Shown here: positions 4,351 through 62,303 of the stretch, one piece after another | Position numbering within the stretch: the stretch's first letter is position 1 | Layout: every line of letters starts with the position of its first letter | Assembly: GCA_016342455.1 (NCBI GenBank) | Contig: JAEIOE010000001.1 | Span: forward strand, 60,096 to 124,095 | DNA: 64,000 nucleotides | Direction of reading: 5' to 3' | Source of the DNA: Mycoplasmatota bacterium | GTDB lineage: Bacteria > Bacillota_I > Bacilli_A > Izemoplasmatales > Hujiaoplasmataceae | Translations under genes and position numbers: made by a program | Notes under the pieces: generated by a model | What the model was told of the DNA's origin: nothing | Seen by the model: the letters and a program-made list of their open reading frames with translations, nothing else | Databases searched by the model: none

Positions 4351-5919
4351 ATGAAAAAACGCAAAAGAGTACAAAGAAAATACAAACAGATGACTTTTGA
4401 CACTAGTGTTAGGAACCCCGAAAGGTTAATGCCTATTTTAAAACTCATTAAAGACTATAATGGAAAAGTGTTAGATGATAAAACTGTTTTAGAAATTGTA
4501 TGTTTAATATATTTGAATGGCGTAACAAAAAGTGACAAAGTACATATTGATGAGTTTTCAACAATAGATTCGATAAAAGCATCAGTAATTCGAGCAAATA
4601 AAAGCAGGAATTCTGATGGTGGATTTCCAAAGGGATACCAATCTAGATTTTGGACTTATATGAGAACTTTATCTGAATTTGGTTTTGTTTACGCTAGATA
4701 TAATGATCAATTTATGATTTCAAAATTAACTTTAGAATACTTTGAAGAAAAATTTGATGAACAAGAAATCTATGCTATTCAGTCAATCCAATACAATAGA
4801 ATGTCACCATATAGAAGGGTGTCAAATGATTATAATTACTTTGAATTCTTGTTTAATATATTAAAAAAATTAAAAGATAATGGAAAAAACTATATAAATC
4901 ATTTTGAATTTATAGCGAGTACTTTTTCTTATTTTGGTGATGAAGATGAGTTTATTGATTTAATAGAAAATAGAGATTTTAAATCAAAAGAAGAAGTGTA
5001 CAAATATTTAGAAGATTTAGATCCTACAATTTTGACAACAGAATATTCATACAAAAGAGTGATTAGTGATTATCCTGACACAATACTTAGAGTTCTCAAA
5101 TTAAATGGTATGATTTCATTAGAATACAAAGGGATGCTTAGAATATTATTGAATGATGATTATATAGAATTCTATAAAGAGCTGTTTAAGTTAAAAAGCA
5201 ATATAGTTGATTCTCAAAAGGAAGATGAAATATCATATTTTGAGTATATAAATAATAATGCTAATATTATTAATAAATCTAAGGAATACAGAATCGAAGC
5301 ACTGCCTCCAGTTGAGACTAATCAACGATTAAAATCGTATATTACCCAATCTTCAGTTACATTAGCTGAAATAATTGATGAGTTAAAAAAAATCGAAAAA
5401 AATAGAGATACATCAAATCCAAAATTTAAGTATTTCCAAGCACCTTTGAGATTGGAATTCTTAATATCATTACTTCTTGTTTCAGTTTATAATACAGAAT
5501 TAGAGGTTAAACCAAATTATAAAATGGACAGTTTAGGTGCACCTATTACTACTGCTCCTGGTAGAAAAGGTGATATTGATGTATACACAAAAGATAATAG
5601 GTTCTGGCTCATTGAGGTTACAACTATAAAAAGCAGACAACAGCAAGTTAATTCGGAAACTACTACAGTGGTTAGGCACCTACTATCAGAAAATGGATCA
5701 TATAATAGCAGGTATTTATCTTTCGTTGCGCCAGTAATACATTTAGATACAAGAGCCTGGTTTGATTATACCATTTTTAAACATAATTCTTTATCAACCG
5801 ATATATACATCAAACCTTCAAATATAACAGATTTTATTAACGTATCCATACTGAAAAATAATTTAATAGATATTGAAAAGTATAGTTCTAACGTAATCAG
5901 TAGTATGCAAATACAATAA
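4351..5919 (+). CDS. AlwI / N.BstNBI-like type II (IIS) restriction endonuclease
   Basis: TSVRNPERLMPILKLIKDYNGKVL...; PITTAPGRKGDIDVYTKDNRFWLIEVTT...VVRHLL resembles the AlwI/BstNBI catalytic region; follows two methylases. Confidence 0.75.
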   Translation: MKKRKRVQRKYKQMTFDTSVRNPERLMPILKLIKDYNGKVLDDKTVLEIVCLIYLNGVTKSDKVHIDEFSTIDSIKASVIRANKSRNSDGGFPKGYQSRFWTYMRTLSEFGFVYARYNDQFMISKLTLEYFEEKFDEQEIYAIQSIQYNRMSPYRRVSNDYNYFEFLFNILKKLKDNGKNYINHFEFIASTFSYFGDEDEFIDLIENRDFKSKEEVYKYLEDLDPTILTTEYSYKRVISDYPDTILRVLKLNGMISLEYKGMLRILLNDDYIEFYKELFKLKSNIVDSQKEDEISYFEYINNNANIINKSKEYRIEALPPVETNQRLKSYITQSSVTLAEIIDELKKIEKNRDTSNPKFKYFQAPLRLEFLISLLLVSVYNTELEVKPNYKMDSLGAPITTAPGRKGDIDVYTKDNRFWLIEVTTIKSRQQQVNSETTTVVRHLLSENGSYNSRYLSFVAPVIHLDTRAWFDYTIFKHNSLSTDIYIKPSNITDFINVSILKNNLIDIEKYSSNVISSMQIQ

Positions 5920-7043: not shown

Positions 7044-7307
7044 GTGGATAAAAAAATTGCTCTACTCTCTGAATTCGAGTTTTTTGCAACCAATAAAGAA
7101 GAACTACTTAAAAAATACTATGGTAAATTTATTGTAATTAAGGACCAAAAGGTTCAAGGAAAATATAATTCCATTGAGGAAGCAATTGTATCCGGGATGA
7201 AAAGTTTTGAACTTGGAACTTTTTTAGTTAAGCAATGTATTCCTGGGAGCGATGAACAAACATTCCATTCTCGAGTTTGCTTTGATGAGAATGCAAGCGT
7301 TTTATAG
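7044..7307 (+). CDS. Small hypothetical protein (likely GTG start with RBS GGAAG)
   Basis: ORF track; [18 protein letters not shown] segment; overlaps the next gene. Confidence 0.55.
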
Positions 7308-7836
7308 AAAACACAAGGGGCTTGCCAGTTCCCTTGTGAGTGATGTAGAAATCACTAATCCAGTCCTTTCAAGATATATTCACAAAGAACCAACCGAAAT
7401 ATTTAATTATACAGCAATTTGGGACACCGGCGCTCAGGCCTCTGTAATTACGTCGCGAGTCGCTAACGATTTACATTTAGTAGCAATAGGAGTTAGTACA
7501 AATTTTGGAGTACATGGACCAAAACAGACAAATAAATATGTAGTTGATTTTATATTACCAAATCATGTTTATGTCCGGGATGTTCAAGTAACTGAGGGAT
7601 TGTTACGTGGTTTTGATGTGCTAATTGGAATGGATATTATTTCTATTGGTGATTTTGCAGTCTCAAATTTCGAAAACAACACCTCTTTCACATTTAGGTT
7701 CCCTTCTCAAAAAGATACAAATTATGTTGAAGAGGTAAAAGAACCAGCTCATTCAACAAAAATTGGGAGAAACTCACCTTGTCCTTGTGGCAGCGGTAAA
7801 AAATACAAGATTTGTGATTGTAAAGAATATCATTAA
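7252..7836 (+). CDS. Retropepsin-like aspartic protease with C-terminal SEC-C zinc motif
   Basis: [12 protein letters not shown] (DTGA), [13 protein letters not shown]-terminal [18 protein letters not shown]. Confidence 0.75.
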
Positions 7837-7989: not shown

Positions 7990-8020
7990 GAATGAAACGA
8001 CTGAAAATCCATACATCTCG
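7990..8020 (+). repeat. Dispersed repeat R1 (GAATGAAACGACTGAAAATCCATACATCTCG)
   Basis: Shares the core ATGAAACRACTGAAAATCCAT with six other intergenic copies. Confidence 0.8.
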
Positions 8021-8167
8021 AATTGTCACGTCCATTTTCAATATTTTTAATATATATAGCTGTAAACGTTTTAGTATATTTGTTCACGAAGTTTGTTAGA
8101 TCACTTTAATTATCACTAAAATTGTGATATCATAAATTTAATAATAATCATATCAAGGGGTTGAAAT

Positions 8168-8399
8168 TAATGAGAAAAGAAATTGGCTATATAATGTTCC
8201 TGTTCGCATACTAGAATCATTGTTTTTTATTATTCTAATATTTGGTTACGCCGTCAATTATTATTTTTTCCCGCAATCTCTTTGGGGTTCAATATTTGAT
8301 GATTTAGGAGATATTGCCGGATCTATAACTTTGCTTGCTCTTCTGCTACATAGCAGCGCATTCATTTATATTGGAGATAGATTTATCCATGATAAATAG
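8168..8399 (+). pseudogene. Frameshifted small membrane protein
   Basis: ATGAGAAAAGAAATTGG needs one extra A to read MRKRNWLYNVPVRILESLFFIILIFGYAVNYYFFPQSLWGSIFDDLGDIAGSITLLALLLHSSAFIYIGDRFIHDK*. Confidence 0.55.
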
Positions 8400-8440
8400 T
8401 GTTGGTTTCGATAGAATAGAATTATGCATTTAAAGATTAT

Positions 8441-8471
8441 TGCATGAAACAACTGATAATCCATTAATCGA
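8441..8471 (+). repeat. Dispersed repeat R2 (TGCATGAAACAACTGATAATCCATTAATCGA)
   Basis: Same repeat family. Confidence 0.85.
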
Positions 8472-8495
8472 AAAAAAATATAAAGGAGAATTATT

Positions 8496-8843
8496 ATGAG
8501 AAAATTATTATTAAGCATTATAGCTATCATGAGTGTAATTGTGTTGATAGGTTGTAACAACGGAGAAGTTACTTTAAAAGATTATAAGTCAGTTTTTGTC
8601 GACGCAGGATATACAGTAGATAAAGATAAAGATATGACTTTTATTCTAGCTGCATCTGAAGCAGAAGATGTAATCAGATTATATAAAGATGATGACGAAA
8701 TTTACATATATGAATTTGAATCAAAGGAAGCATTTGAAAGTTCTATAATCAAAGGTGCTGATGCAACGTATGATAGATTCGCAATGGGTTGTGATGATGA
8801 AACAATGATAGAACTTTTTAACGAGGTATCAAATTCAAAATAA
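8496..8843 (+). CDS. Small lipoprotein
   Basis: MRKLLLSIIAIMSVIVLIGCNN lipobox; RBS AAAGGAGAA. Confidence 0.75.
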   Translation: MRKLLLSIIAIMSVIVLIGCNNGEVTLKDYKSVFVDAGYTVDKDKDMTFILAASEAEDVIRLYKDDDEIYIYEFESKEAFESSIIKGADATYDRFAMGCDDETMIELFNEVSNSK

Positions 8844-8926
8844 ACGAAAAATGTTATAGAGAGTATTAGTGAGTTATAAATTTAATTATGTTTTCAATTT
8901 ACAAATAGGTTATCAAGAATTTCTTT

Positions 8927-8950
8927 TGCAAGAAACAACTGAAAATCAAT
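8927..8950 (+). repeat. Dispersed repeat R3 (TGCAAGAAACAACTGAAAATCAAT)
   Basis: Same repeat family. Confidence 0.75.
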
Positions 8951-8981
8951 GTGTTTTATAACATGTCAAGAATATAAGAAT

Positions 8982-9010
8982 AAACAGCAAATTTACTTGC
9001 TGTTTTTTTT
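8982..9010 (+). terminator. Rho-independent terminator
   Basis: AAACAGCAAATTTACTTGCTGTTTTTTTT. Confidence 0.8.
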
Positions 9011-9039
9011 ATGATATAATATGTTTTGGAGATGGTTAT

Positions 9040-9228
9040 ATGTTAAGAAAAATTAGAATATATGGTATGATATTTATAGCCTTTGTTTTGACACCATTTG
9101 GTGTAATTTACTTCATTGCAATCGGATTGAATGGATTAATAGAAAGTATAGGAGTTATATTATTTGGATTAGCTTTAACCCTTGCTTTTGGGCTGTTAAT
9201 GCTACTAATTAAAAAGGTTGTTTCCTAA
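9040..9228 (+). CDS. Small membrane protein
   Basis: Two hydrophobic segments. Confidence 0.55.
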   Translation: MLRKIRIYGMIFIAFVLTPFGVIYFIAIGLNGLIESIGVILFGLALTLAFGLLMLLIKKVVS

Positions 9229-9295
9229 AATATATACTAGATTTAGAATGAAGTTGTGCATTTTAGGTCTCCAAAACCGTTATTAGGTGTTTTTG

Positions 9296-9326
9296 TGCAT
9301 GAAACGACTGAAAATCCATTAATCGA
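9296..9326 (+). repeat. Dispersed repeat R4 (TGCATGAAACGACTGAAAATCCATTAATCGA)
   Basis: Best consensus copy. Confidence 0.9.
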
Positions 9327-9515
9327 ATAAATTGATATATAGGTGGAAAATTATGAATTGTGAAGAAAAATGAAAGCAGAAAAAAATGATAAAACAATAT
9401 AAACAAGAGCTTCTTATGATAAATTTTCAAATGTTAATGCTATTACAAAACAATGAAAATAAGGAAGAAGAGTATCCAAGTTATGTAAAAATATAATAAA
9501 GGAGAGTTAATCAGA

Positions 9516-10028
9516 ATGAATGAATGGATGATATCATTTATCACAGCTGTAATTGTAATAGTTTTAAGGGAAGTCTTAGAGAGATTAAATTCACATTATA
9601 AAGCAAAAAGGGAGTTTCTAAAAGAAAACTTTAATGATATTAAGAATATCTATTTAAGTATTGATAAATTGATAATGAATTATCAATATACTAACAATGA
9701 TATATTAAATTTGAGTATGCTTGAGTTTGTGTTCGAAGAACTTAAATCCTTCATGGAACAAGCGTATGATATCGTAAACTTAGTTAGACTATATATTCCT
9801 AAAATTGACAATCAAAGCAAGGGCATGGAGTTGGCTAATGAACTTTATACACAACTTATTGTTGAGAGCCAGAAATTGCATAATTCATTGTCTAATGATG
9901 AAAAGAAGCGACAGGAAGATATTTATAATATAATTAATAAAAAATATGATATTGAAATAAGAACAAATGTTATCAAATATGTACTTAAGCCGTTGAAAGA
10001 AGATTTAATCAAATATTTACATAAATGA
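9516..10028 (+). CDS. Hypothetical protein with N-terminal hydrophobic segment and helical body
   Basis: ORF with RBS AAAGGAGAG. Confidence 0.6.
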   Translation: MNEWMISFITAVIVIVLREVLERLNSHYKAKREFLKENFNDIKNIYLSIDKLIMNYQYTNNDILNLSMLEFVFEELKSFMEQAYDIVNLVRLYIPKIDNQSKGMELANELYTQLIVESQKLHNSLSNDEKKRQEDIYNIINKKYDIEIRTNVIKYVLKPLKEDLIKYLHK

Positions 10029-10211
10029 TACAACGGCATGGTTGTAAATTATGTTACATAAGATTTTAGCTTATAGCCTAATATATTTATTTAAACATTA
10101 TTTTTAAGGAACGATACAATTATATACATCTGAATACTATATATTTTTATTGTTAGTCTTCAAAACTGTTTTAACAGACATTTATGTTGAGTAGATATGT
10201 GAACTATTAGT

Positions 10212-10242
10212 TTCATGAAACAACTGAAAAACCATTAATTAG
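10212..10242 (+). repeat. Dispersed repeat R5 (TTCATGAAACAACTGAAAAACCATTAATTAGA)
   Basis: Same repeat family. Confidence 0.85.
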
Positions 10243-10254
10243 AAAGGTAGAAAA

Positions 10255-10488
10255 ATGAATAGTATCGTTAAAGAGTTAGAAAAAAAAGCCAAAGCATTTA
10301 AAATTAAAATACCCATCGAAAAAAGAGAAAACCTTGATAGCTATGAGAATATGTCTGAAAGTCAACTTCAATATAAATCCAATATGGGCGATGGGTTAGC
10401 TACTTTGGCATTGGTTAGGTCTTTTTTAGCTGTACAACAGACACAACGTGTAATAATCAGACCTGCTGATTATATTATGGCTGTTTAG
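10255..10488 (+). CDS. Small hypothetical protein
   Basis: ORF with RBS AGAAAGG. Confidence 0.5.
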   Translation: MNSIVKELEKKAKAFKIKIPIEKRENLDSYENMSESQLQYKSNMGDGLATLALVRSFLAVQQTQRVIIRPADYIMAV

Positions 10489-10569
10489 GGTGCAATACTA
10501 GTTAAAATTTATATCAATACTTGATATATCTTGCAATAAATTAGTGGTTATAGGCTTGTTTGGTTTCAA

Positions 10570-10600
10570 AACAAAAAGCCAACTATAAGTTGACCTTTTG
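10570..10600 (-). terminator. Terminator downstream of the precursor peptide gene
   Basis: Minus strand AAAAGGTCAACTTATAGTTGGCTTTTTG. Confidence 0.6.
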
Positions 10601-10609
10601 ATTTTTCCT

Positions 10610-10801
10610 TTAACAAATAAAAATGATTAATGCTGGCAAGATACCACAACCGGTTGGATCTGCCAAACTTGCTCCGCTTCCGCCACCATTTCCACAGGTA
10701 GTATCTGTTTCCAGACAATTTACTTGCATTTCGCCATCATCACTTAATGAACTAACTCCGTCATCTTCGTCATTCCAAATGGGATTACCTAAAGAATTCA
10801 T
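10610..10801 (-). CDS. Candidate RiPP precursor peptide (63 aa, four Cys, Gly-rich centre)
   Basis: MNSLGNPIWNDEDDGVSSLSDDGEMQVNCLETDTTCGNGGGSGASLADPTGCGILPALIIFIC; strong SD AGAAAGGAGGTTCAT-ATG; own terminator; adjacent to an ABC exporter and two radical SAM/SPASM genes. Confidence 0.8.
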   Translation of the reverse strand: MNSLGNPIWNDEDDGVSSLSDDGEMQVNCLETDTTCGNGGGSGASLADPTGCGILPALIIFIC

Positions 10802-10894
10802 ATGAACCTCCTTTCTAAAAAAATATTTATGTTGTTATTAAGAACTACGATAATATAGTAAACAAAATTAATGCAATTTCTGCGAGGTGTCAGT

Positions 10895-12547
10895 ATGAAA
10901 AATAGAACAAAATTATCTTGGGAATACTATAAAAAGCACAGGATATTATACTTTGGCTTCATTTTGGTTAAATTATTGAGAATAGTAGTAACAATATATT
11001 TGCCATTATTTTTTGCGAATATTATTACTTTTTTGGCAGATAAAATGTTTGAGAGGGTGTATAAATACATTTTCTTATTAGCTCTGTTTAGTATAATATC
11101 AATTTTACTAAAATACATTCAAAAGAATATAGAAAACTTCTTGAAAATTAGTGTAAATCTTATTATAAAAGAGAAGTTAGTAAAAAAAATATCGTTGCTT
11201 CCTTGTTATTTATATGATGCTTATAAAGACTCTAAGGTTTTTAACATTTTAACAAGTGATTCAAATAAAGTGGCAGAATATCTTCTGTTATTAACGGATT
11301 TTGTAATTAATATTTTGACAGTAATAATAATTGGAATTGTGATTTTTAATCTTAACATATTACTATCACTTATTATTATACTTGCATATCCATTAACTAT
11401 TTTAATTAACTGGTTATATGGAAAAAAAATAAAAAAGTCTTCAGAAAACCTGATTATAGCATATGACTCGTATATTTATGCAGCGGAAAAGGTGTGTAAC
11501 AACTTTGACTTAAACATTATAAATAGCCATCCAACGAAACTTCAAAATTACTTTCTTAAGCCTTATTTAGTATTCAAAAATAAATTGCTTGCGCAAAAAA
11601 AACTACAAGTTAACAATACACATCTTATTGGTTTTATTAGCCTAATTAGTTATTTTCTCATACTAATAGTGGGCGTCAGATTAATAATAAATGGACAAAT
11701 AGAACTTGGCATACTAATAGCATTTATTTCATTTTCTAATTCATTTACAACTACTTTGAATTCGATAGTATTCTTTAATACCAATCTTCAACCAACTCTT
11801 ACTTCCATAGATAGAGTAATAAATTTTCATTCTGTCTATATGAAATATTATGAAGAAAATAATTCAAAATTAGAGTATAAATCTAAAATAACTAATATTA
11901 TGTTAGAAAACATAAGCAAACATTTTGGTGATAAAGAAATATTGAGAGACGTTAATATTAATATTCCTATAAACTCGGTTGTAGGAGTAGTCGGAGAAAA
12001 TGGTGCTGGAAAAACAACTTTATTCAAAATATTATCACATATGTACCTTCCGGATAAAGGAAGAATTGGTGTAAATAATACTTGGGTAAATAGTATCAAT
12101 TTAGAATCGATATATTCAATCTTCTCATATGTAGGGATTAACAAGACTATTTATAAACTTACCGTGAAAGAAAACTTGCTTTTTTCCATTAGGGATAATG
12201 ATTTTGATGAAACAACTTTAAACAATTTACTAAAAACAGTGAATATTTATTCGGATATATTTTCTTTGAAAGAGAATATAAATACATCAATAAATAATGA
12301 AAATGATCTGTCTAGTGGCCAGATTCAAAAGATTCAACTAGCTCGTATGTTTCTCAAAAATAATCCTGTTTTAATAATTGATGAAGCTCTAAGTGAGTTA
12401 GACGAAACTTCAAGGAAATTAATACTTATGTATTTAAAATTATATAAAAAGGATAAAATAATTTTTATCACTTCTCATAACCAAAAAGATCTTTCCACAT
12501 GCGATATAGTTTTGAATATAAAAAATGGAAAAATAATACAAGTATAA
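10895..12547 (+). CDS. ABC transporter (fused TM and ATPase), probable peptide exporter
   Basis: GENGAGKTTLFK Walker A, LSSGQIQKIQLARM signature, VLIIDEALSELD Walker B; no C39 peptidase domain. Confidence 0.9.
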   Translation: MKNRTKLSWEYYKKHRILYFGFILVKLLRIVVTIYLPLFFANIITFLADKMFERVYKYIFLLALFSIISILLKYIQKNIENFLKISVNLIIKEKLVKKISLLPCYLYDAYKDSKVFNILTSDSNKVAEYLLLLTDFVINILTVIIIGIVIFNLNILLSLIIILAYPLTILINWLYGKKIKKSSENLIIAYDSYIYAAEKVCNNFDLNIINSHPTKLQNYFLKPYLVFKNKLLAQKKLQVNNTHLIGFISLISYFLILIVGVRLIINGQIELGILIAFISFSNSFTTTLNSIVFFNTNLQPTLTSIDRVINFHSVYMKYYEENNSKLEYKSKITNIMLENISKHFGDKEILRDVNINIPINSVVGVVGENGAGKTTLFKILSHMYLPDKGRIGVNNTWVNSINLESIYSIFSYVGINKTIYKLTVKENLLFSIRDNDFDETTLNNLLKTVNIYSDIFSLKENINTSINNENDLSSGQIQKIQLARMFLKNNPVLIIDEALSELDETSRKLILMYLKLYKKDKIIFITSHNQKDLSTCDIVLNIKNGKIIQV

Positions 12548-12582
12548 TAATAAATTTTAAAAATCAAATTAAAGATTAAAGT

Positions 12583-13920
<1,338 letters not shown>

Positions 13921-13929
13921 GGGTCCACC

Positions 13930-15285
13930 TTAAAAAATGAAGTCTTCCAATTTATCCATACAAAAAGCATTTTTATAGGCTCCACAATTTGGACTATTTA
14001 TTGGAATATTTGATCCTATTAACTCTAATGGGCAACCCGATAAACAAACATGTCTAAATTCACACTTTTTACAATCGTATATATTGAATATATTTCTATT
14101 TTGAAATTCCAACAGTTTCTTCTCATATATTCGAATTTTGGGATAAAATTCTCCTATAATACCTAATGAAGGATCGACACACATACAATAATATGTTTTC
14201 CCGCTTGGGCCGAAATTCAAAGAAACGTGATCGGGAACACCACATTTAGAAATTTGGTGAGGTATCTGCCCATTTTTTCTTAGGATAACTGAAGCGAGAT
14301 TTGACAAAGAATAAAAACTGTCTACTGTATATTTTGTTCCCTTAACGATGGCTTTTGTTGCTTTTCTTAAATTTATATAATCTTCTAAATTATAATAATC
14401 CTTATCTGTTAGAGAGTCTGATTTATGATTTATTATATAAGTAGATCGAAAGGAAATATTTTTAAAATTAAATAATTCAAATGAATCTAGTATGGTTATT
14501 AATTTTGAGAGATTATCAGGCGAATGCGCATCAACCATCATAGTAACTACTCTTATTTTAATATCTTTTTTAGCAAGATATTTAATTCCATTCAAAATTT
14601 CAGTAATATCTATTTGTACTTTACTATTGTTAATTTCTTTAATAACATTATTATCCCCATCAAGAGATATCTGAACCTCACTAAAAGCATTAAAATTTAT
14701 ACGATTTCGAAATTTGTAGATATTAACTCCATTTGTAAAAAGAATTATATTTTTAACTTTGTTCTTAAATTTTTGAATCGTGTAATTTATTGTTTCTATT
14801 TGGGCTTCTAATAATGGTTCACCACCGCTTATTATAATATTTTCTAAACGAAACTCAGAATTACAATTTTCAAAATAGATACGCAAAAATTCATATATTT
14901 GATCAATTTTATGAATACTCATAACGCCTTTGGTGTCTGAATACCTTTTTTGATAGCAATAAGCGCATTGGAAATTGCATGCATAACTATAATTAATAGT
15001 TATTGATTTGATTTTATCTCCTAATTTGTTACAAGCGGAAAATAGTTCTTTATCAAATATGGCAATTTGATTATCAGATAGAATCTGTTTTTCATTAATG
15101 AGTTTCTTATAAAACACATCTTCAGAGGTGTTCAATTTTGTGTCAGAAGCTATCTTTCTGTCTATCTTATGTAATAATTGATATTCGATCTCGCTAATTT
15201 TTTTTCGTCGATAGGAAATAAGATTCATAATATATTGGTTTTCTTTATATTTATAACAAATATTATTAAATAATACTCTTTTCAT
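13930..15285 (-). CDS. Radical SAM/SPASM peptide maturase (second)
   Basis: YACNFQCAYC, IISGGEPLLE, CKKCEFRHVCLSGCP...NCGAY; RBS AGGAGG. Confidence 0.9.
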   Translation of the reverse strand: MKRVLFNNICYKYKENQYIMNLISYRRKKISEIEYQLLHKIDRKIASDTKLNTSEDVFYKKLINEKQILSDNQIAIFDKELFSACNKLGDKIKSITINYSYACNFQCAYCYQKRYSDTKGVMSIHKIDQIYEFLRIYFENCNSEFRLENIIISGGEPLLEAQIETINYTIQKFKNKVKNIILFTNGVNIYKFRNRINFNAFSEVQISLDGDNNVIKEINNSKVQIDITEILNGIKYLAKKDIKIRVVTMMVDAHSPDNLSKLITILDSFELFNFKNISFRSTYIINHKSDSLTDKDYYNLEDYINLRKATKAIVKGTKYTVDSFYSLSNLASVILRKNGQIPHQISKCGVPDHVSLNFGPSGKTYYCMCVDPSLGIIGEFYPKIRIYEKKLLEFQNRNIFNIYDCKKCEFRHVCLSGCPLELIGSNIPINSPNCGAYKNAFCMDKLEDFIF

Positions 15286-15496
15286 GATTCCTCCTTATGT
15301 AATATAATATAATATAATTATGTATAATTGTGTTTTTATAAAACAGGAAAACTGATTACTTGAATTACTAGTCAACAAAATGTATAATTAATTTGTAAAA
15401 AGAAGAAGTTAGATGTTCTGTTTATTATATTTATATCATAAAAATTTATTAAAAACAATTACATATCATTAAATATTTATTTTAAGGAGAGTTAAT

Positions 15497-17035
15497 ATGT
15501 TGAAAAAGTCATTTAAAAGTTTTATACTTATACTTTATATAGCATTTCTTTTTGGATGCGAAAATACTTCTGTTTCTTCAACTTATCCAGAAAATACTCA
15601 ATCAATAAATATTGAATCATATGTTGCATATACTTACTCAGACTCAATTACACAAGAGGAAAAACTAGAATTTGTTAACATGAATTCACATAATATAGAA
15701 ATCTTGTTAGAAAACTGTATTTTAAATGAAGAAGTCTTGAATTATTATATAAGCAATGAGTCATATAATTACTATAATATTAGAACAAACACTATTTATT
15801 TAAATATTAATGATTATGCTACATTTGATGCCATATTATACCCCATAATAAACATTCACAGTACATATACAAACTATGGGTTAATGTATGGGTTATCATA
15901 TTTTTTAAGTAATGAACTCGGATATGTTGATTCTGACACACATATAAATGAGACTAGCATACCTGATTACCTTTTTGATGAGGGTAATGATTACATGCAC
16001 GAATTACTATATCCTTTTTTTAATGAAGATTACTCAACTGAAAGTCAAATACGAGATGCAAAAGAGTTTTCTATTATAATCTCAAACTATATAATAACTA
16101 ATTTCTCTATGGATAACTTCCTTAGTTTATTATCAAACACAGATGATTTCGAAGAATTTGATTCAAGTTTTGTTTCCTATAAGAATTTGTGGCTTGAAAG
16201 CTTGGAATATGAAAGTACTATTTACAGTTCTGAATTCCCTGTTCAGTTTTCATGGGAACATGTTTACAGTAAGCTAGAGTGGCGAACAAGTCATGGCTTT
16301 TTTGTAATAAATAATGACTTTGAGGATGACTTATATGGAGAGAATTATGGAGCTTATAGTTTATTAAATAATATAAACTCACTAATGATTACAATTAATC
16401 AATTTGAGTATGAAATGACTCAAGCTGATATCTTGTTAAAAGATGAGAATACAGAATATCCAAACTTGTCAGTAACTTTTACATTTAGGCTAAATATGAG
16501 TTTCTATAATGGTCAAGGAGAAATTACTGTTATGACACTTGGAACTTTTCTACATGAATATATTCACTATCTTACTGCACATTATATGGATATTGCAGGG
16601 GACTCTAATAAGTGGTTATTTGAAGCAGTTGCACATTATTTTCAAAACACTTCGTTGTTTGTGCAAACAGTCATAGATAATGCATTGATAACAGACCAAA
16701 ACGAGCATGGGGCTGATTCATTTTTATCTATATTTTCTGACCATTATGCCTATGAATTTGATTGCTCGATTAATGTGTATGAGATGTATGATATCTTTCA
16801 ATATCTTTCGAATAATTATGATGGTGTAACTGAATACCATTCGGATTATCATATTCAATATATTTCCTTTTTTAATCATATTATCGAAACTTATGGTTTT
16901 GACACTTTTATGGAAATACTTGTTGACCAAACTTTAATGGATGAATATTTGAGCAATGATTGGGACGGACTTATTCTAGAGTGGGAAACTAATATTAAAG
17001 CGAATTATGTTTGGCTGGATAATTACCTTTCTTGA
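15497..17035 (+). CDS. Lipoprotein zinc metallopeptidase (HExxH...E, gluzincin-like)
   Basis: Lipobox FLFGCENTS; TFLHEYIHYLTAHYMDIAGDSNKWLFEAVAHYF. Confidence 0.75.
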   Translation: MLKKSFKSFILILYIAFLFGCENTSVSSTYPENTQSINIESYVAYTYSDSITQEEKLEFVNMNSHNIEILLENCILNEEVLNYYISNESYNYYNIRTNTIYLNINDYATFDAILYPIINIHSTYTNYGLMYGLSYFLSNELGYVDSDTHINETSIPDYLFDEGNDYMHELLYPFFNEDYSTESQIRDAKEFSIIISNYIITNFSMDNFLSLLSNTDDFEEFDSSFVSYKNLWLESLEYESTIYSSEFPVQFSWEHVYSKLEWRTSHGFFVINNDFEDDLYGENYGAYSLLNNINSLMITINQFEYEMTQADILLKDENTEYPNLSVTFTFRLNMSFYNGQGEITVMTLGTFLHEYIHYLTAHYMDIAGDSNKWLFEAVAHYFQNTSLFVQTVIDNALITDQNEHGADSFLSIFSDHYAYEFDCSINVYEMYDIFQYLSNNYDGVTEYHSDYHIQYISFFNHIIETYGFDTFMEILVDQTLMDEYLSNDWDGLILEWETNIKANYVWLDNYLS

Positions 17036-17075
17036 ATATTCTGTAATAAAAGGAGTTAGTATCGAGTATATCTTG

Positions 17076-17106
17076 TGCATGAAACGACTGAAAATCCATA
17101 TTGCTA
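17076..17106 (+). repeat. Dispersed repeat R6 (TGCATGAAACGACTGAAAATCCATATTGCTA)
   Basis: Same repeat family. Confidence 0.85.
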
Positions 17107-17148
17107 TTAAGATTTTAAACTATTTAGAAAATATAGAGGTAGATACAT

Positions 17149-17502
17149 ATGACATTCCACAGTATTAATTTTGTCTATATAGGTTTATGGATATTTGTGT
17201 TCTTGGGCTTTTTACAAGGAGCTTCCTTAGATTATTTATGTCCTAATTATGAAGGTGTAAGGAAAGTGAATCTCCATCGATTTAGTAAATTCTTTAAAAT
17301 GAGTAAAACATATAAACCTAAAATGTGGATTAAATCATTTATTATGCAACTAGTTGGATATATATATATTATTGTCTCATTTGTTTTGATAATAATATCG
17401 TTATTTCAAACTTTAGAAACTACTATATTTATCATTTCAATATATTCTATAGCTGCTTTAATATATTTTGTTGGCGGGTATATTTATACGAAAATATATT
17501 GA
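17149..17502 (+). CDS. Small membrane protein
   Basis: Multiple TM segments. Confidence 0.6.
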   Translation: MTFHSINFVYIGLWIFVFLGFLQGASLDYLCPNYEGVRKVNLHRFSKFFKMSKTYKPKMWIKSFIMQLVGYIYIIVSFVLIIISLFQTLETTIFIISIYSIAALIYFVGGYIYTKIY

Positions 17503-17511
17503 GATACTTAT

Positions 17512-17542
17512 TGCATGAAATGACTGAAAATTTATTATTTGG
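17512..17542 (+). repeat. Dispersed repeat R7 (TGCATGAAATGACTGAAAATTTATTATTTGG)
   Basis: Same repeat family, diverged. Confidence 0.75.
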
Positions 17543-17756: not shown

Positions 17757-17808
17757 CAACTGACTTGTAATCAGTAGGTTGCGGGTTCAATTCCTGCTTT
17801 CGGCACCA
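17757..17808 (+). other. tRNA-Thr(TGT) 3' half fragment = attachment-site copy A
   Basis: CAACTGACTTGTAATCAGTAGGTTGCGGGTTCAATTCCTGCTTTCGGCACCA; anticodon and T arms intact, 5' half absent. Confidence 0.85.
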
Positions 17809-18206
17809 TTAAAGCACTCTAACTATAACGAACAAAACGTTATGTTATCTAGATAAGATGGACTTTGGTCCGTCTTTTTTTTGCATTTAATGCGTAAAAT
17901 ATGTACCAAATAAATATCAAAAGTTTCAATTATTGCAACTTAACCCTCTACATACAGGGGTTTATATCAAAATTCTAGTTCTGATATCTTAGATAACGGA
18001 AACATTGAAATCCTGATTTTTATGATAAATTAGTCGCGCTAACCCTAGAACTTCAAGGATGCTACACAAATAAATAATGCTTTTTAATAATAAGACATCG
18101 AAATGATCAAACCCTAGAACTTAATATATTGGGTGTAAAAATCATCACTTTTTTGTACTATTGGAAATTCAGGGTTTCATCTTTCAAAAATATAACTTTT
18201 TTTAGT
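17797..18206 (+). repeat. ~400-bp direct repeat copy A (tRNA 3' end, terminator, element-end region)
   Basis: Near-identical to 22048-22461. Confidence 0.85.
17857..17882 (+). terminator. tRNA-Thr-associated terminator, copy A
   Basis: GATGGACTTTGGTCCGTCTTTTTTTT; repeated downstream of 22060 and 44640. Confidence 0.8.
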
Positions 18207-18490
18207 TAACACTTTTCAATTACATATCAAATTTTTAAGAAGGAAATGAAATTGATTCATTTAGAATTGATTACAATTACCAACAACAAAAGTGGGTTTG
18301 TGTAATGATATTCACATTGCTTCAAAACATTGACTTCATTGAATCTAATAGGACAATCATATTGATGACATTAATATATTATCATCGATTGTTTTTATAA
18401 AATGAATGTGGTAGAATACAATTAATTAATATTCTATTTGTGATTTTTTATATTAGATAGGATATTAAATCAATCAGAGGAGGTGACAAA

Positions 18491-45009: not shown

Positions 45010-47637
45010 ATGGCTATTGTTAGACCATTTAAGGCACTACGTCCACGTAAGGACTTAGTTGAGAAAGTTGCATCACTGCCTTATGATGTGATGGATAGGA
45101 AAGAAGCGAAAGATATGGCTAAAGGAAACCCTTATAGTTTCCTACATATTGTAAGATCAGAAATTGATTTTCCGTCTTCAACTGATCCCTATTCAGAAAA
45201 AGTATACGATAAAGCTCGAAAGAATTTAAAAGTGTTTGAAGAGGACGGGATTTTAGTTCAAGATGAAAAACATTGCATCTATATCTATCGTCAAATTATG
45301 GATGGTAGAGAACAAACAGGATTTGTTGGTTTAACATCAGTAGATGATTATGAAAATAATATAATTAAAAAACATGAACTAACAATGTTGCAAAGCGAGC
45401 AAGACAGAATATATCATTTTGATGCTTGTGATGCAGATACTGAAGCAATTTTCTTATCATATAGAGATGACTCTAGACTAAACGAAATTTTATCGGAATG
45501 GACCAAAAAACAACCAGTTTCAGATTTTATTAGCAATGATGATGTAAGTCATATTGTGTGGGTTATTGATGAAGAAAAAGTAATCTTAGAAATTATTGAA
45601 CGTTTTTCAGAAATTAATAGTTTGTATATTGCGGATGGTCATCATAGAACAGCATCTGCAGTTAAAGTAGCTAATAAGAGAAGAAATGAAACACCAAATT
45701 ATACTGGCGATGAAGAGTTTAACTTCTTTATGAGTGTTATCTTCCCTGAATCAAACTTGAAGGTTATGGACTATAATCGTGTTGTACACGATTTAGGCGG
45801 AATAACGCTAGAATATTTTTGGGATGAAATGAGAAAACTTTTTGTAATCGAAGAAATGAATTCTCCTTATAAACCAATTGAAAAATCTACTTTTGGTATG
45901 TATGTTAATAAAAAGTGGTACAAAATGATTTTGAAAAAGGATTGCTGCAATTTTAAGAGTATCGTTGATCAAACGGATGCAGCAATAATAGAAAAATATG
46001 TTTTTAATGATATTTTAGGAATCAAGAATTTAAGAAGTTCTTCTAGAGTTTCTTTCGTTGGAGGAATCAGAGGACTCAAAGGCTTGAAAGATAAAACTGA
46101 CAAGCTAGATGGCTGTGGAATTGCAATGTATCCAACGTCTATGGCTGAAATTATGAGTGTAGCAGATAAAGGTTTAATCATGCCGGCTAAATCTACATGG
46201 TTCGAACCTAAATTGAGAAGTGGATTATTTGTACACAAATTTGATAGCTTAGGTTCTTCATTAGAGGGTGATGGAGATGTTTCAAGTCAAACGAAAAAAT
46301 ATATTGAAGACACTTTAAAAACAGTTAAGCAAAGAGATACTCATCAAAAAGAATTTATTCAAGCAGTAACGGAAGTGTTTCATTCACTTGGCCCAGTACT
46401 AGAGCAACATTCTGAATATATAGAAAACAATATTCTTGAAAGAATCGTTGAACCTGAAAGAGCTATTCAATTTAGAGTGCCTTGGGTAGATGATGAAGGA
46501 GTTACACAGGTTAATAGAGGGTTCAGAGTTCAATTTAATGGAGCAATTGGTCCTTACAAAGGGGGGCTACGTTTCCATCCGTCTGTATACTTAGGGTTAA
46601 TTAAATTCTTAGGATTTGAACAAATATTTAAAAATAGTTTAACCGGATTACCGATTGGCGGAGGTAAAGGGGGATCTGATTTTAATCCTCTTGGAAAATC
46701 TAATGAAGAAATCAGAAGATTTTGCGTTAGTTTTATGACAGAATTATATAGACATATAGGACCTAACATAGATGTTCCTGCGGGAGACATTGGTGTAGGT
46801 GGGCGAGAAATCGGATATTTATTTGGACAATATAGACGAATTCGTGGTGCATTCGAAAATGGTGTATTAACGGGTAAAGGGTTAGATTACGGTGGATCAC
46901 TAATTAGACCTGAAGCTACAGGTTATGGAGCAACATATTTTGCACAAGAAGTTTTAAAACATGAGAATTTAGATTTTAAGAACAAAACAGTTGCAGTATC
47001 AGGATTTGGTAATGTTGCTTGGGGTGTTTGTAAAAAAGTTAGAGATTTAGGTGGAAAAGTTGTAACATTAAGTGGACCTGAAGGCTATATTTACGATCCT
47101 AATGGTATCGCAACTCAAGAGAAAATTGATTTTATGTTAGAAATGCGTAATAACACTAATGGTAAAATCCAAGATTACGCTGATAGATTTGGTGTGGAAT
47201 TTTTCGAAGGAAAAAAACCTTGGGAAAGAAAAGTGGATTTAATTATGCCATGTGCTACTCAAAATGAAATCCAACCAAAAGATGCAGAAATGATTATTAA
47301 TAATGGTGTGAAATTTATCGTTGAAGGATCAAATATGCCTACAACTAACGAAGCGGTAGCAATTTTACAAGCTGCTGGAATAGTAATTGGTCCTGGTAAA
47401 GCTGCAAATGCTGGTGGTGTTGCAACTTCTGCTTTAGAAATGAGTCAAAACTCACAACGTATACATTGGACTGCAGAAGAAGTAGATTCAAAATTACTTG
47501 GAATCATGAAGAATATCTATAACTCTTGTGTAAGAGCGAGTTCTCGTTATGGATTTGGTTATGATTTAATCGCTGGAGCGAATATTGCTGGGTTTACAAA
47601 AGTTGCTGATGCAATGATTGCACAAGGTAGATATTAA
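45010..47637 (+). CDS. Fusion: DUF1015 domain + glutamate dehydrogenase
   Basis: N-term MAIVRPFKALRPRKDL...YIADGHHRTASA...WFEPKLRSGLFVHKF; C-term GPYKGGLRFHPSV...LPIGGGKGGSDFNP...ATGYGATYF...GSNMPTT. Confidence 0.92.
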   Translation: MAIVRPFKALRPRKDLVEKVASLPYDVMDRKEAKDMAKGNPYSFLHIVRSEIDFPSSTDPYSEKVYDKARKNLKVFEEDGILVQDEKHCIYIYRQIMDGREQTGFVGLTSVDDYENNIIKKHELTMLQSEQDRIYHFDACDADTEAIFLSYRDDSRLNEILSEWTKKQPVSDFISNDDVSHIVWVIDEEKVILEIIERFSEINSLYIADGHHRTASAVKVANKRRNETPNYTGDEEFNFFMSVIFPESNLKVMDYNRVVHDLGGITLEYFWDEMRKLFVIEEMNSPYKPIEKSTFGMYVNKKWYKMILKKDCCNFKSIVDQTDAAIIEKYVFNDILGIKNLRSSSRVSFVGGIRGLKGLKDKTDKLDGCGIAMYPTSMAEIMSVADKGLIMPAKSTWFEPKLRSGLFVHKFDSLGSSLEGDGDVSSQTKKYIEDTLKTVKQRDTHQKEFIQAVTEVFHSLGPVLEQHSEYIENNILERIVEPERAIQFRVPWVDDEGVTQVNRGFRVQFNGAIGPYKGGLRFHPSVYLGLIKFLGFEQIFKNSLTGLPIGGGKGGSDFNPLGKSNEEIRRFCVSFMTELYRHIGPNIDVPAGDIGVGGREIGYLFGQYRRIRGAFENGVLTGKGLDYGGSLIRPEATGYGATYFAQEVLKHENLDFKNKTVAVSGFGNVAWGVCKKVRDLGGKVVTLSGPEGYIYDPNGIATQEKIDFMLEMRNNTNGKIQDYADRFGVEFFEGKKPWERKVDLIMPCATQNEIQPKDAEMIINNGVKFIVEGSNMPTTNEAVAILQAAGIVIGPGKAANAGGVATSALEMSQNSQRIHWTAEEVDSKLLGIMKNIYNSCVRASSRYGFGYDLIAGANIAGFTKVADAMIAQGRY

Positions 47638-61400: not shown

Positions 61401-62303
61401 TTAATTTAATTGTTTATCAATATTATCAATCAAATTGAACTTAGAATAGTCACTTTTTGCTTTTTTTAAAGACATATGTAAATATATTTCTGTTGTACTA
61501 ATATCTGTATGGCCTAAAATTTTTTGAATTATGTATATATCACAGCCATTTTCAGCTAAAGCAGTAGCCATTGTGTGCCTAAACATTCTTGCATTTAACA
61601 TCTTTAAACCTAAATCAACCTTGATTTTCTTCATAACCCATTCAAGGTTTCGATAAGTAAAAGGTTGGTGACCGATATAATTCCAAAGGAGATATTTTCT
61701 TTGAGGACCTAAATCAATATATTTCATAATCAATGATTTTGTAAGCTTTGTAAAAAATACGGTGCGCGCTAATCTTGTTTTAGTTCTAGTCAAGTATATT
61801 GAACTTTCATTAAAATCAATATTAAATATTTCTATGTTTAATAATTCGGATTGTCTTACACCCGTATCAAGAAGCAATAATATAATAATTTTCCTAGTAA
61901 GATAATACGGATTACTTTCATCCATTGATAGAGTATAGTCTATAATTTTTTTTAAGTCATTTTCGTGAATAATATTATAAGACAGTTTTGTTTCTCTTAT
62001 TTTCTTCAATGAAAAGAGAGCTTCGTTATCTATATTATGATACTTAAAGACTTGCTTCAAATATAGTATTCTTTTGTTTTCGGTTATAGGCTTACAGGTT
62101 TTTCTAGCAAAAATCCTGAATTTTGTTAATGTAGCTTCATTTAATTCACGTGTGTAAATGATGTTGTAAGTATCAAAAAACTTGATCCAACCTCTAGCAT
62201 GTGATTCTTGATATCTAACTGTTTCTATTGCTTTTTCCATTTTAGAGTACTCCTGATAGTCTCTAATAAGATCTTTTAATGCTGCTTTTCTCTTTTTTTT
62301 CAT
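61401..62303 (-). CDS. Tyrosine recombinase (phage integrase family)
   Basis: DTGVRQSELL; MFRHTMATALAENGCDIYIIQKILGHTDISTTEIYLHM. Confidence 0.92.
   Translation of the reverse strand: MKKKRKAALKDLIRDYQEYSKMEKAIETVRYQESHARGWIKFFDTYNIIYTRELNEATLTKFRIFARKTCKPITENKRILYLKQVFKYHNIDNEALFSLKKIRETKLSYNIIHENDLKKIIDYTLSMDESNPYYLTRKIIILLLLDTGVRQSELLNIEIFNIDFNESSIYLTRTKTRLARTVFFTKLTKSLIMKYIDLGPQRKYLLWNYIGHQPFTYRNLEWVMKKIKVDLGLKMLNARMFRHTMATALAENGCDIYIIQKILGHTDISTTEIYLHMSLKKAKSDYSKFNLIDNIDKQLN

Follow-up and report, generated by a model that had tools for sequence, protein, structure and literature searches.

A candidate radical-SAM RiPP precursor in a tRNA-Phe-type cassette array of a Mycoplasmatota bacterium

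A short ORF with the signals of a gene

Does a 63-residue reading frame on the minus strand of a Mycoplasmatota genome (10610–10801) encode a peptide that the products of its neighbors modify and export, and what kind of genomic setting does it occupy? The window analyzed here, in whose coordinates all unprefixed positions are given, is a 64,000-nt stretch of DNA (assembly GCA_016342455.1, contig JAEIOE010000001.1, positions 60,096–124,095), for which an earlier note, made from the letters alone, had singled out this ORF as a precursor peptide. The coordinates, translation (MNSLGNPIWNDEDDGVSSLSDDGEMQVNCLETDTTCGNGGGSGASLADPTGCGILPALIIFIC), ATG start, and four cysteines given there are all correct: these are Cys29, Cys36, Cys52, and Cys63, the last being the final residue of the peptide. 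The peptide combines 10 acidic residues with a complete absence of Lys, Arg, and His, and has a hydrophobic tail in addition to its even number of cysteines. We provisionally place a boundary between an acidic leader (approximately residues 1–28) and a Cys-containing core (approximately residues 29–63).

The signals around the ORF are those of an expressed gene. Its Shine-Dalgarno region (AGAAAGGAGGTTCAT, 10802–10816, minus strand) matches the anti-SD complement over nine bases (TTTTTAGAAAGGAGGTTCAT-ATG), as against at most seven in 34 large genes of the window, thus bearing out the perfect Shine-Dalgarno sequence claimed in the note. In 40 dinucleotide-preserving shuffles, comparable chance ORFs (ATG-initiated, at least 63 aa long, and with an SD match of at least 7) arise at a mean of 0.025 per window. 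The codon usage of the ORF (log-odds 0.335 per codon) lies above the mean of the 34 genes (0.269), while 27 shadow ORFs average 0.035 and none of them scores higher. The gene also has, as was claimed, what is probably its own terminator, namely a hairpin with a T run (AAGGTCAACTTATAGTTGGCTTTTT, 10568–10600, minus strand; –15.8 kcal/mol, z = –3.25), which is not listed by a simpler but stricter consensus scan that presupposes a fixed layout and demands at least three G-C pairs.

No homolog of the peptide was recovered from 61 relatives, plasmids, phages, and IMG/VR (with Clostridia and other phyla covered via plasmids only), and at 14 loci with related radical-SAM genes that we read, no similar precursor aligned convincingly; within the searched sets it is therefore an orphan. 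Hence, no conservation backs the reading frame, which counts against our best explanation, and the relation of the peptide to the neighboring enzymes and its chemistry are likewise things that we infer. The lack of homologs is also what favors the view that the ORF is spurious and that either an antisense ORF (10623–10805, plus strand) or nothing is expressed here. However, the Shine-Dalgarno sequence, codon usage, and hairpin of the minus-strand ORF are all far from chance, whereas neither the first nor the second of these speaks for the antisense ORF (SD match 3, codon log-odds 0.122). Homologs keeping the plus-strand frame, which the note had named as the observation that would count against its proposal, did not turn up any more than homologs of the peptide. 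We accordingly regard the minus-strand ORF as almost certainly a real gene, and a spurious origin as highly improbable. A likeness to lanthipeptides, prompted by the C-terminal cysteine and by class III lanthipeptides near a match in Anaerococcus, was set aside as superficial, and no lanthipeptide synthetase is seen at the window locus.

The exporter, the radical-SAM pair, and the likely product

Divergently oriented to the precursor gene is one for an MsbA-type ABC exporter with membrane and ATPase domains (10895–12547, plus strand), whose probable start is at 10895 (SD match 6) rather than at the first ATG (10871), and in which no peptidase domain was found. This gene is in turn convergent with two tandem minus-strand genes coding for radical-SAM/SPASM enzymes, which we term enzyme A (12583–13920, 445 aa) and enzyme B (13930–15285, 451 aa). 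The two are 28% identical and share as invariant residues the three cysteines of the CxxxCxxC motif (C106, C110, C113) and the SPASM cysteines (C346, C364, C400, C403, C409, C413; enzyme A numbering). Enzyme A additionally contains a run of about 20 Asn residues encoded by an in-frame (ATT)21 trinucleotide tract (13446–13509); the run lies in a loop missing from enzyme B and one relative, and the length of the tract could change without a frameshift.

In profile comparisons, enzyme A matches the Clo7bot, TIGR04463, CefB, and PapB maturase families, all far under their curated cut-offs (the best score, 98.9 bits, compares with a threshold of 600, so that assignment to one of these named NCBIfam families is not supported), and gives lower-scoring matches to cyclophane- and dynobactin-type families. 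Enzyme B matches MoaA and PapB, and on its own scores better with MoaA than with any peptide maturase. A profile into which A, B, and one relative were combined recovers CteB (PDB 5wgg, E = 5.9 × 10–28) from the N-terminal recognition region through the SAM and SPASM domains; a structure model of enzyme B was too poor to use (pLDDT 42.7). Farther along is a gene for a lipoprotein-like protein with a zinc-peptidase-like HEYIH...E motif (15497–17035, plus strand), a candidate leader protease or unrelated cargo, which gave no Pfam or PDB match and a structure model too poor to use (pLDDT 35.5). No immunity gene was recognized in the cluster. The only other free small ORF with a good Shine-Dalgarno sequence in the interval codes for a 77-aa protein lacking cysteines (10255–10488, plus strand) and without a Pfam match. 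Elsewhere in the window, an 875-aa ORF (45010–47637) resembles, as judged by eye, an in-frame fusion of a DUF1015-type protein with glutamate dehydrogenase.

This locus thus has the organization of a SPASM RiPP cluster: a short precursor ORF beside radical-SAM enzymes, both of which possess the CxxxCxxC motif and SPASM cysteines. Given that no other precursor-like ORF accompanies the ABC exporter and the tandem pair of radical-SAM/SPASM enzymes, a RiPP precursor is its best reading, and the proposal of the note gains support, of a contextual and statistical rather than a comparative kind, from the gene-grade signals, the completeness of both enzymes, the adjacent exporter, and the absence of a rival small ORF. 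We propose that the product of the gene is matured to a secreted RiPP of anionic character, and that the N-terminal recognition region of enzyme A, enzyme B, or both would bind the acidic leader of the precursor. Enzymes A and B would probably act as a pair, in the manner of thuricin CD, to introduce cross-links (thioethers formed by cysteine being the most likely) into the core of about 35 residues, with the ABC protein then exporting the product. As no peptidase domain was found in this exporter, a separate protease, possibly the HExxH lipoprotein, might remove the leader. By analogy to other clusters of this kind, the product is likely to be a narrow-spectrum bacteriocin. To this explanation as a whole, comprising the precursor, its paired enzymes, its export, and its carriage as cassette cargo (see below), we assign a probability of roughly 0.7.

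Its parts are not equally firm. That the peptide is a substrate of the two radical-SAM enzymes appears likely from the gene organization, even though the precursor gene is transcribed separately from the enzyme genes, at a distance of 1.8 kb and with the exporter gene in between, and enzyme B alone resembles MoaA more than peptide maturases. The separate promoter and the position next to the exporter gene instead of the enzyme genes, along with the hydrophobic tail and the even number of cysteines, would equally suit a real small secreted or membrane-active peptide that is not a substrate of the enzymes, e.g., a bacteriocin that the ABC protein exports without modification or with disulfide bonds; however, such a peptide would leave enzymes A and B without a substrate in the cassette, and we consider it unlikely. 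The cross-link type is less settled, with thioethers being favored, albeit by a limited measure. Several other chemistries (C-C or C-O cross-links, epimerization) are performed by SPASM enzymes, with the cysteines then serving another purpose, and both the lower-scoring cyclophane- and dynobactin-type matches of enzyme A and the C-terminal cysteine, which fits no canonical donor position, are compatible with these. Against this stand the cysteine content of the core, the best matches of enzyme A being maturases of Cys-rich peptides, and the best PDB match being CteB, a thioether enzyme. A non-thioether modification seems rather doubtful, if less so than a peptide that is not a substrate of the enzymes.

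Among the thioether-type classes, the donor-before-acceptor order of sactipeptides, whose thioethers link Cys sulfur to an alpha-carbon, is possible for C29, C36, and C52 but impossible for C63, which as the last residue cannot donate to a downstream acceptor. Likewise, the repeated Cys-X3-Asp/Glu pattern of PapA-type ranthipeptides is reduced here to a single motif (C29–D33). With no residue following Cys63, we do not claim membership of the peptide in either the sactipeptides or the ranthipeptides.

A tRNA-Phe-type cassette array within a tRNA-Thr island

The cluster occupies one interval (10213–17077) of a repetitive array, which, together with the island described below, is an addition to what the earlier note had recognized. 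The array (7990–17536, plus strand) is comprised of seven sites running in one direction, starting at 7990, 8442, 8928, 9297, 10213, 17077, and 17513 and resembling TGCATGAAACGACTGAAAATCCATT; the cluster is bounded by the fifth (10213–10236, plus strand) and the sixth (17077–17100, plus strand), with the above 77-aa ORF directly following the former. In the array site GCATGAAACGACTGAAAATCCAT, the right half corresponds to the anticodon loop and stem of tRNA-Phe, and the layout comprises GCATGAAACGA, followed by CTGAAAA (the anticodon loop) and then TCCATG with the 3' side of the tRNA. In most of the window sites, nothing of the tRNA 3' half follows TCCAT, and several of the sites are degenerate copies. 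A search of the window with the site pattern returned six matches against none expected. Just to the left of the array, there is an ORF (7252–7836) for a small aspartyl protease of the retropepsin-like type, with a SEC-C motif at its C-terminus, the Pfam matches being weak for the protease part.

The same site is present in 11 of 35 related genomes, all from the same family, while a reversed-pattern control gave none. In other genera of this family, small, often single-gene cassettes flanked by such sites lie beside tRNA-Phe; several of these arrays are headed by the intact tRNA-Phe gene, and CTGAAAATCCATG with the remainder of the tRNA-Phe 3' half is repeated at many junctions. Integron-like, same-way arrays are seen at loci L043, L044, L045, L046, L047, L048, and L049, spanning several genera of the one family; the cargo in a relative includes an AbiEi/AbiEii pair (L048:5713–7148). 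Across seven arrays, the 29 intervals have a median length of 916 bp, 15 of them with a single ORF of at least 90 aa, and no site on the opposite strand was found. The ORFs are oriented along the direction of the sites in 46 instances and opposed to it in six, the latter including the two radical-SAM genes of the cluster and three from a recombinase-bearing element (contig C29). Individual cassettes recur between genera: a 117-aa cassette of the window (17149–17502) has an 84% identical counterpart in another genus, and a 102-aa cassette of the same genome an 80% identical one in a third genus.

Contig C29 of the same genome carries, between tRNA-Phe and the first sites, genes for a tyrosine recombinase and a Viral_Rep (CRESS-type) protein. 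A complete 3.3-kb element with a 58% identical tyrosine recombinase occurs in a relative, flanked at one end by an anticodon loop with the 3' half of the tRNA and at the opposite end by GCATGAAACGA together with the same 3' half. Since this element is delimited by a tRNA half and a site, its type of recombinase appears tied to the site by position. A CRESS-type Rep (Viral_Rep in L049) adjoins the tyrosine recombinase at L049:3810–5599 and at L082, in what are small integrating elements at tRNA-Phe; the tRNA-Phe-type recombinase of L049 is encoded at 4739–5599. The array in the window contains no recombinase of the tRNA-Phe type, those found being on other contigs; a tyrosine recombinase elsewhere in the window (61401–62303) was set aside as the enzyme of the array, being only 32–40% identical to the tRNA-Phe type.

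To the right of the array, the 3' half of tRNA-Thr(TGT) is repeated over 54 bp without a mismatch (17757–17810, plus strand). This copy is the right-hand boundary of an island of 25,213 bp, at whose left-hand boundary, upstream on the same contig, lies the intact tRNA-Thr gene (G000:C20:52614–52690), with the left copy of the 54-bp direct repeat at L078:12140–12193. Another tyrosine recombinase, the integrase, is encoded beside the intact tRNA gene (L078:12286–13569), along with an HTH protein at this left end. An integrase next to an intact tRNA gene and a direct repeat of the tRNA 3' end on the far side are what define a tRNA-associated island. Besides the cassette array, the cargo includes a Rep_trans protein and methyltransferase-like genes. 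In the one relative that was read for an empty tRNA-Thr site, none was found: shared sequence starts only at window position 18399, and there is no tRNA-Thr there. With the array on this island, the elements are nested: the cluster in a cassette, the cassette in an array, and the array in an island.

As a pattern, the cassette array is certain, and it is likely to be a product of site-specific recombination. We suggest that its junctions are tRNA-Phe anticodon-loop sites that would be recombined in trans by the tRNA-Phe-specific tyrosine recombinase. From the sites, the recombinase-bearing element, and the tRNA-Thr island, the peptide then has the appearance of cargo in a cassette system that is tRNA-based and resembles an integron. 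Whether the array works as a capture system is a more tentative matter, to which we give somewhat less than even credence, and the same applies to the general proposal that this low-GC family captures single genes at tRNA-Phe in an integron-like fashion, via a tyrosine recombinase borne on integrating CRESS-Rep elements, the system having also moved onto a tRNA-Thr island, where its cargo is a complete orphan two-enzyme RiPP cluster. A possible, though somewhat less probable, alternative is that the repeats were left behind by one tRNA-Phe island after another, accreted in tandem and no longer moving. This has a precedent in the tandem ssrA islands of Dehalococcoides, where repeats of the 3' end of the RNA gene bound tandem cargo units, many of them without an integration module (PMC3146451), and it accords with the truncation of most window sites at TCCAT and the degeneracy of several. 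However, remnants of islands would not readily account for cassettes of down to 0.4 kb with one gene, for the same cassettes in different genera, or for the good conservation of the sites across genera.

Comparison with known systems

The closest working model for the cluster, going by published descriptions, is the sactipeptide thuricin CD. Like thuricin Z/huazacin, it has two radical-SAM/SPASM enzymes, and its TrnC and TrnD form a tight complex, with neither working well alone (PMC12093266). The present cluster differs in that only one precursor was found and one cysteine is C-terminal. Ruminococcin C, whose precursor of some 63 residues carries four donor cysteines split between two halves to give a double hairpin (PMC8172795), shares this distribution of cysteines with our peptide, a likeness of layout only and not homology; its acceptors come after each cysteine, which is impossible for Cys63, and a single enzyme is described for it. 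With respect to the ranthipeptides (PapA/PapB, SCIFF/CteB), the enzymes match the PapB and CteB profiles, and the precursor has one Cys-X3-Asp stretch (C29-LET-D33) with the PapB spacing (PMC9413430); however, PapA has six such motifs and SCIFF six cysteines, as against one motif and four cysteines here. If our reading is right, the peptide would represent a radical-SAM RiPP unseen before and with no relatives known, and it would offer one more case in which to test the action of two SPASM enzymes on a single substrate.

The genomic setting matters more than the peptide. A literature search for a tRNA-based cassette array surfaced only integrons and the tandem ssrA islands, which is weak evidence of novelty, few subscription papers having been covered. 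The ssrA islands, along with cis-mobilizable elements and tandem accretion, resemble the array in that repeats of an RNA-gene 3' end bound tandem cargo, but the former use a serine recombinase, and the units of the array are far shorter (median 0.9 kb). Integrons, in turn, share with it the organization of same-way, short, often single-gene cassettes with a common recombination site, and a tyrosine recombinase is present in the family; the array differs in deriving its site from tRNA-Phe and in having its recombinase in an integrating element with a CRESS-type Rep, which is not beside every array. With its site tRNA-derived, and integrons proper being marked by foldable attC sites with R/L boxes and by an IntI with an extra domain, we do not file the array as an integron. 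If the proposal holds, bacteria would have, in short cassettes joined at a tRNA-derived site, a natural means other than integrons of acquiring and exchanging individual genes, among them clusters for peptide antibiotics and systems for abortive infection.
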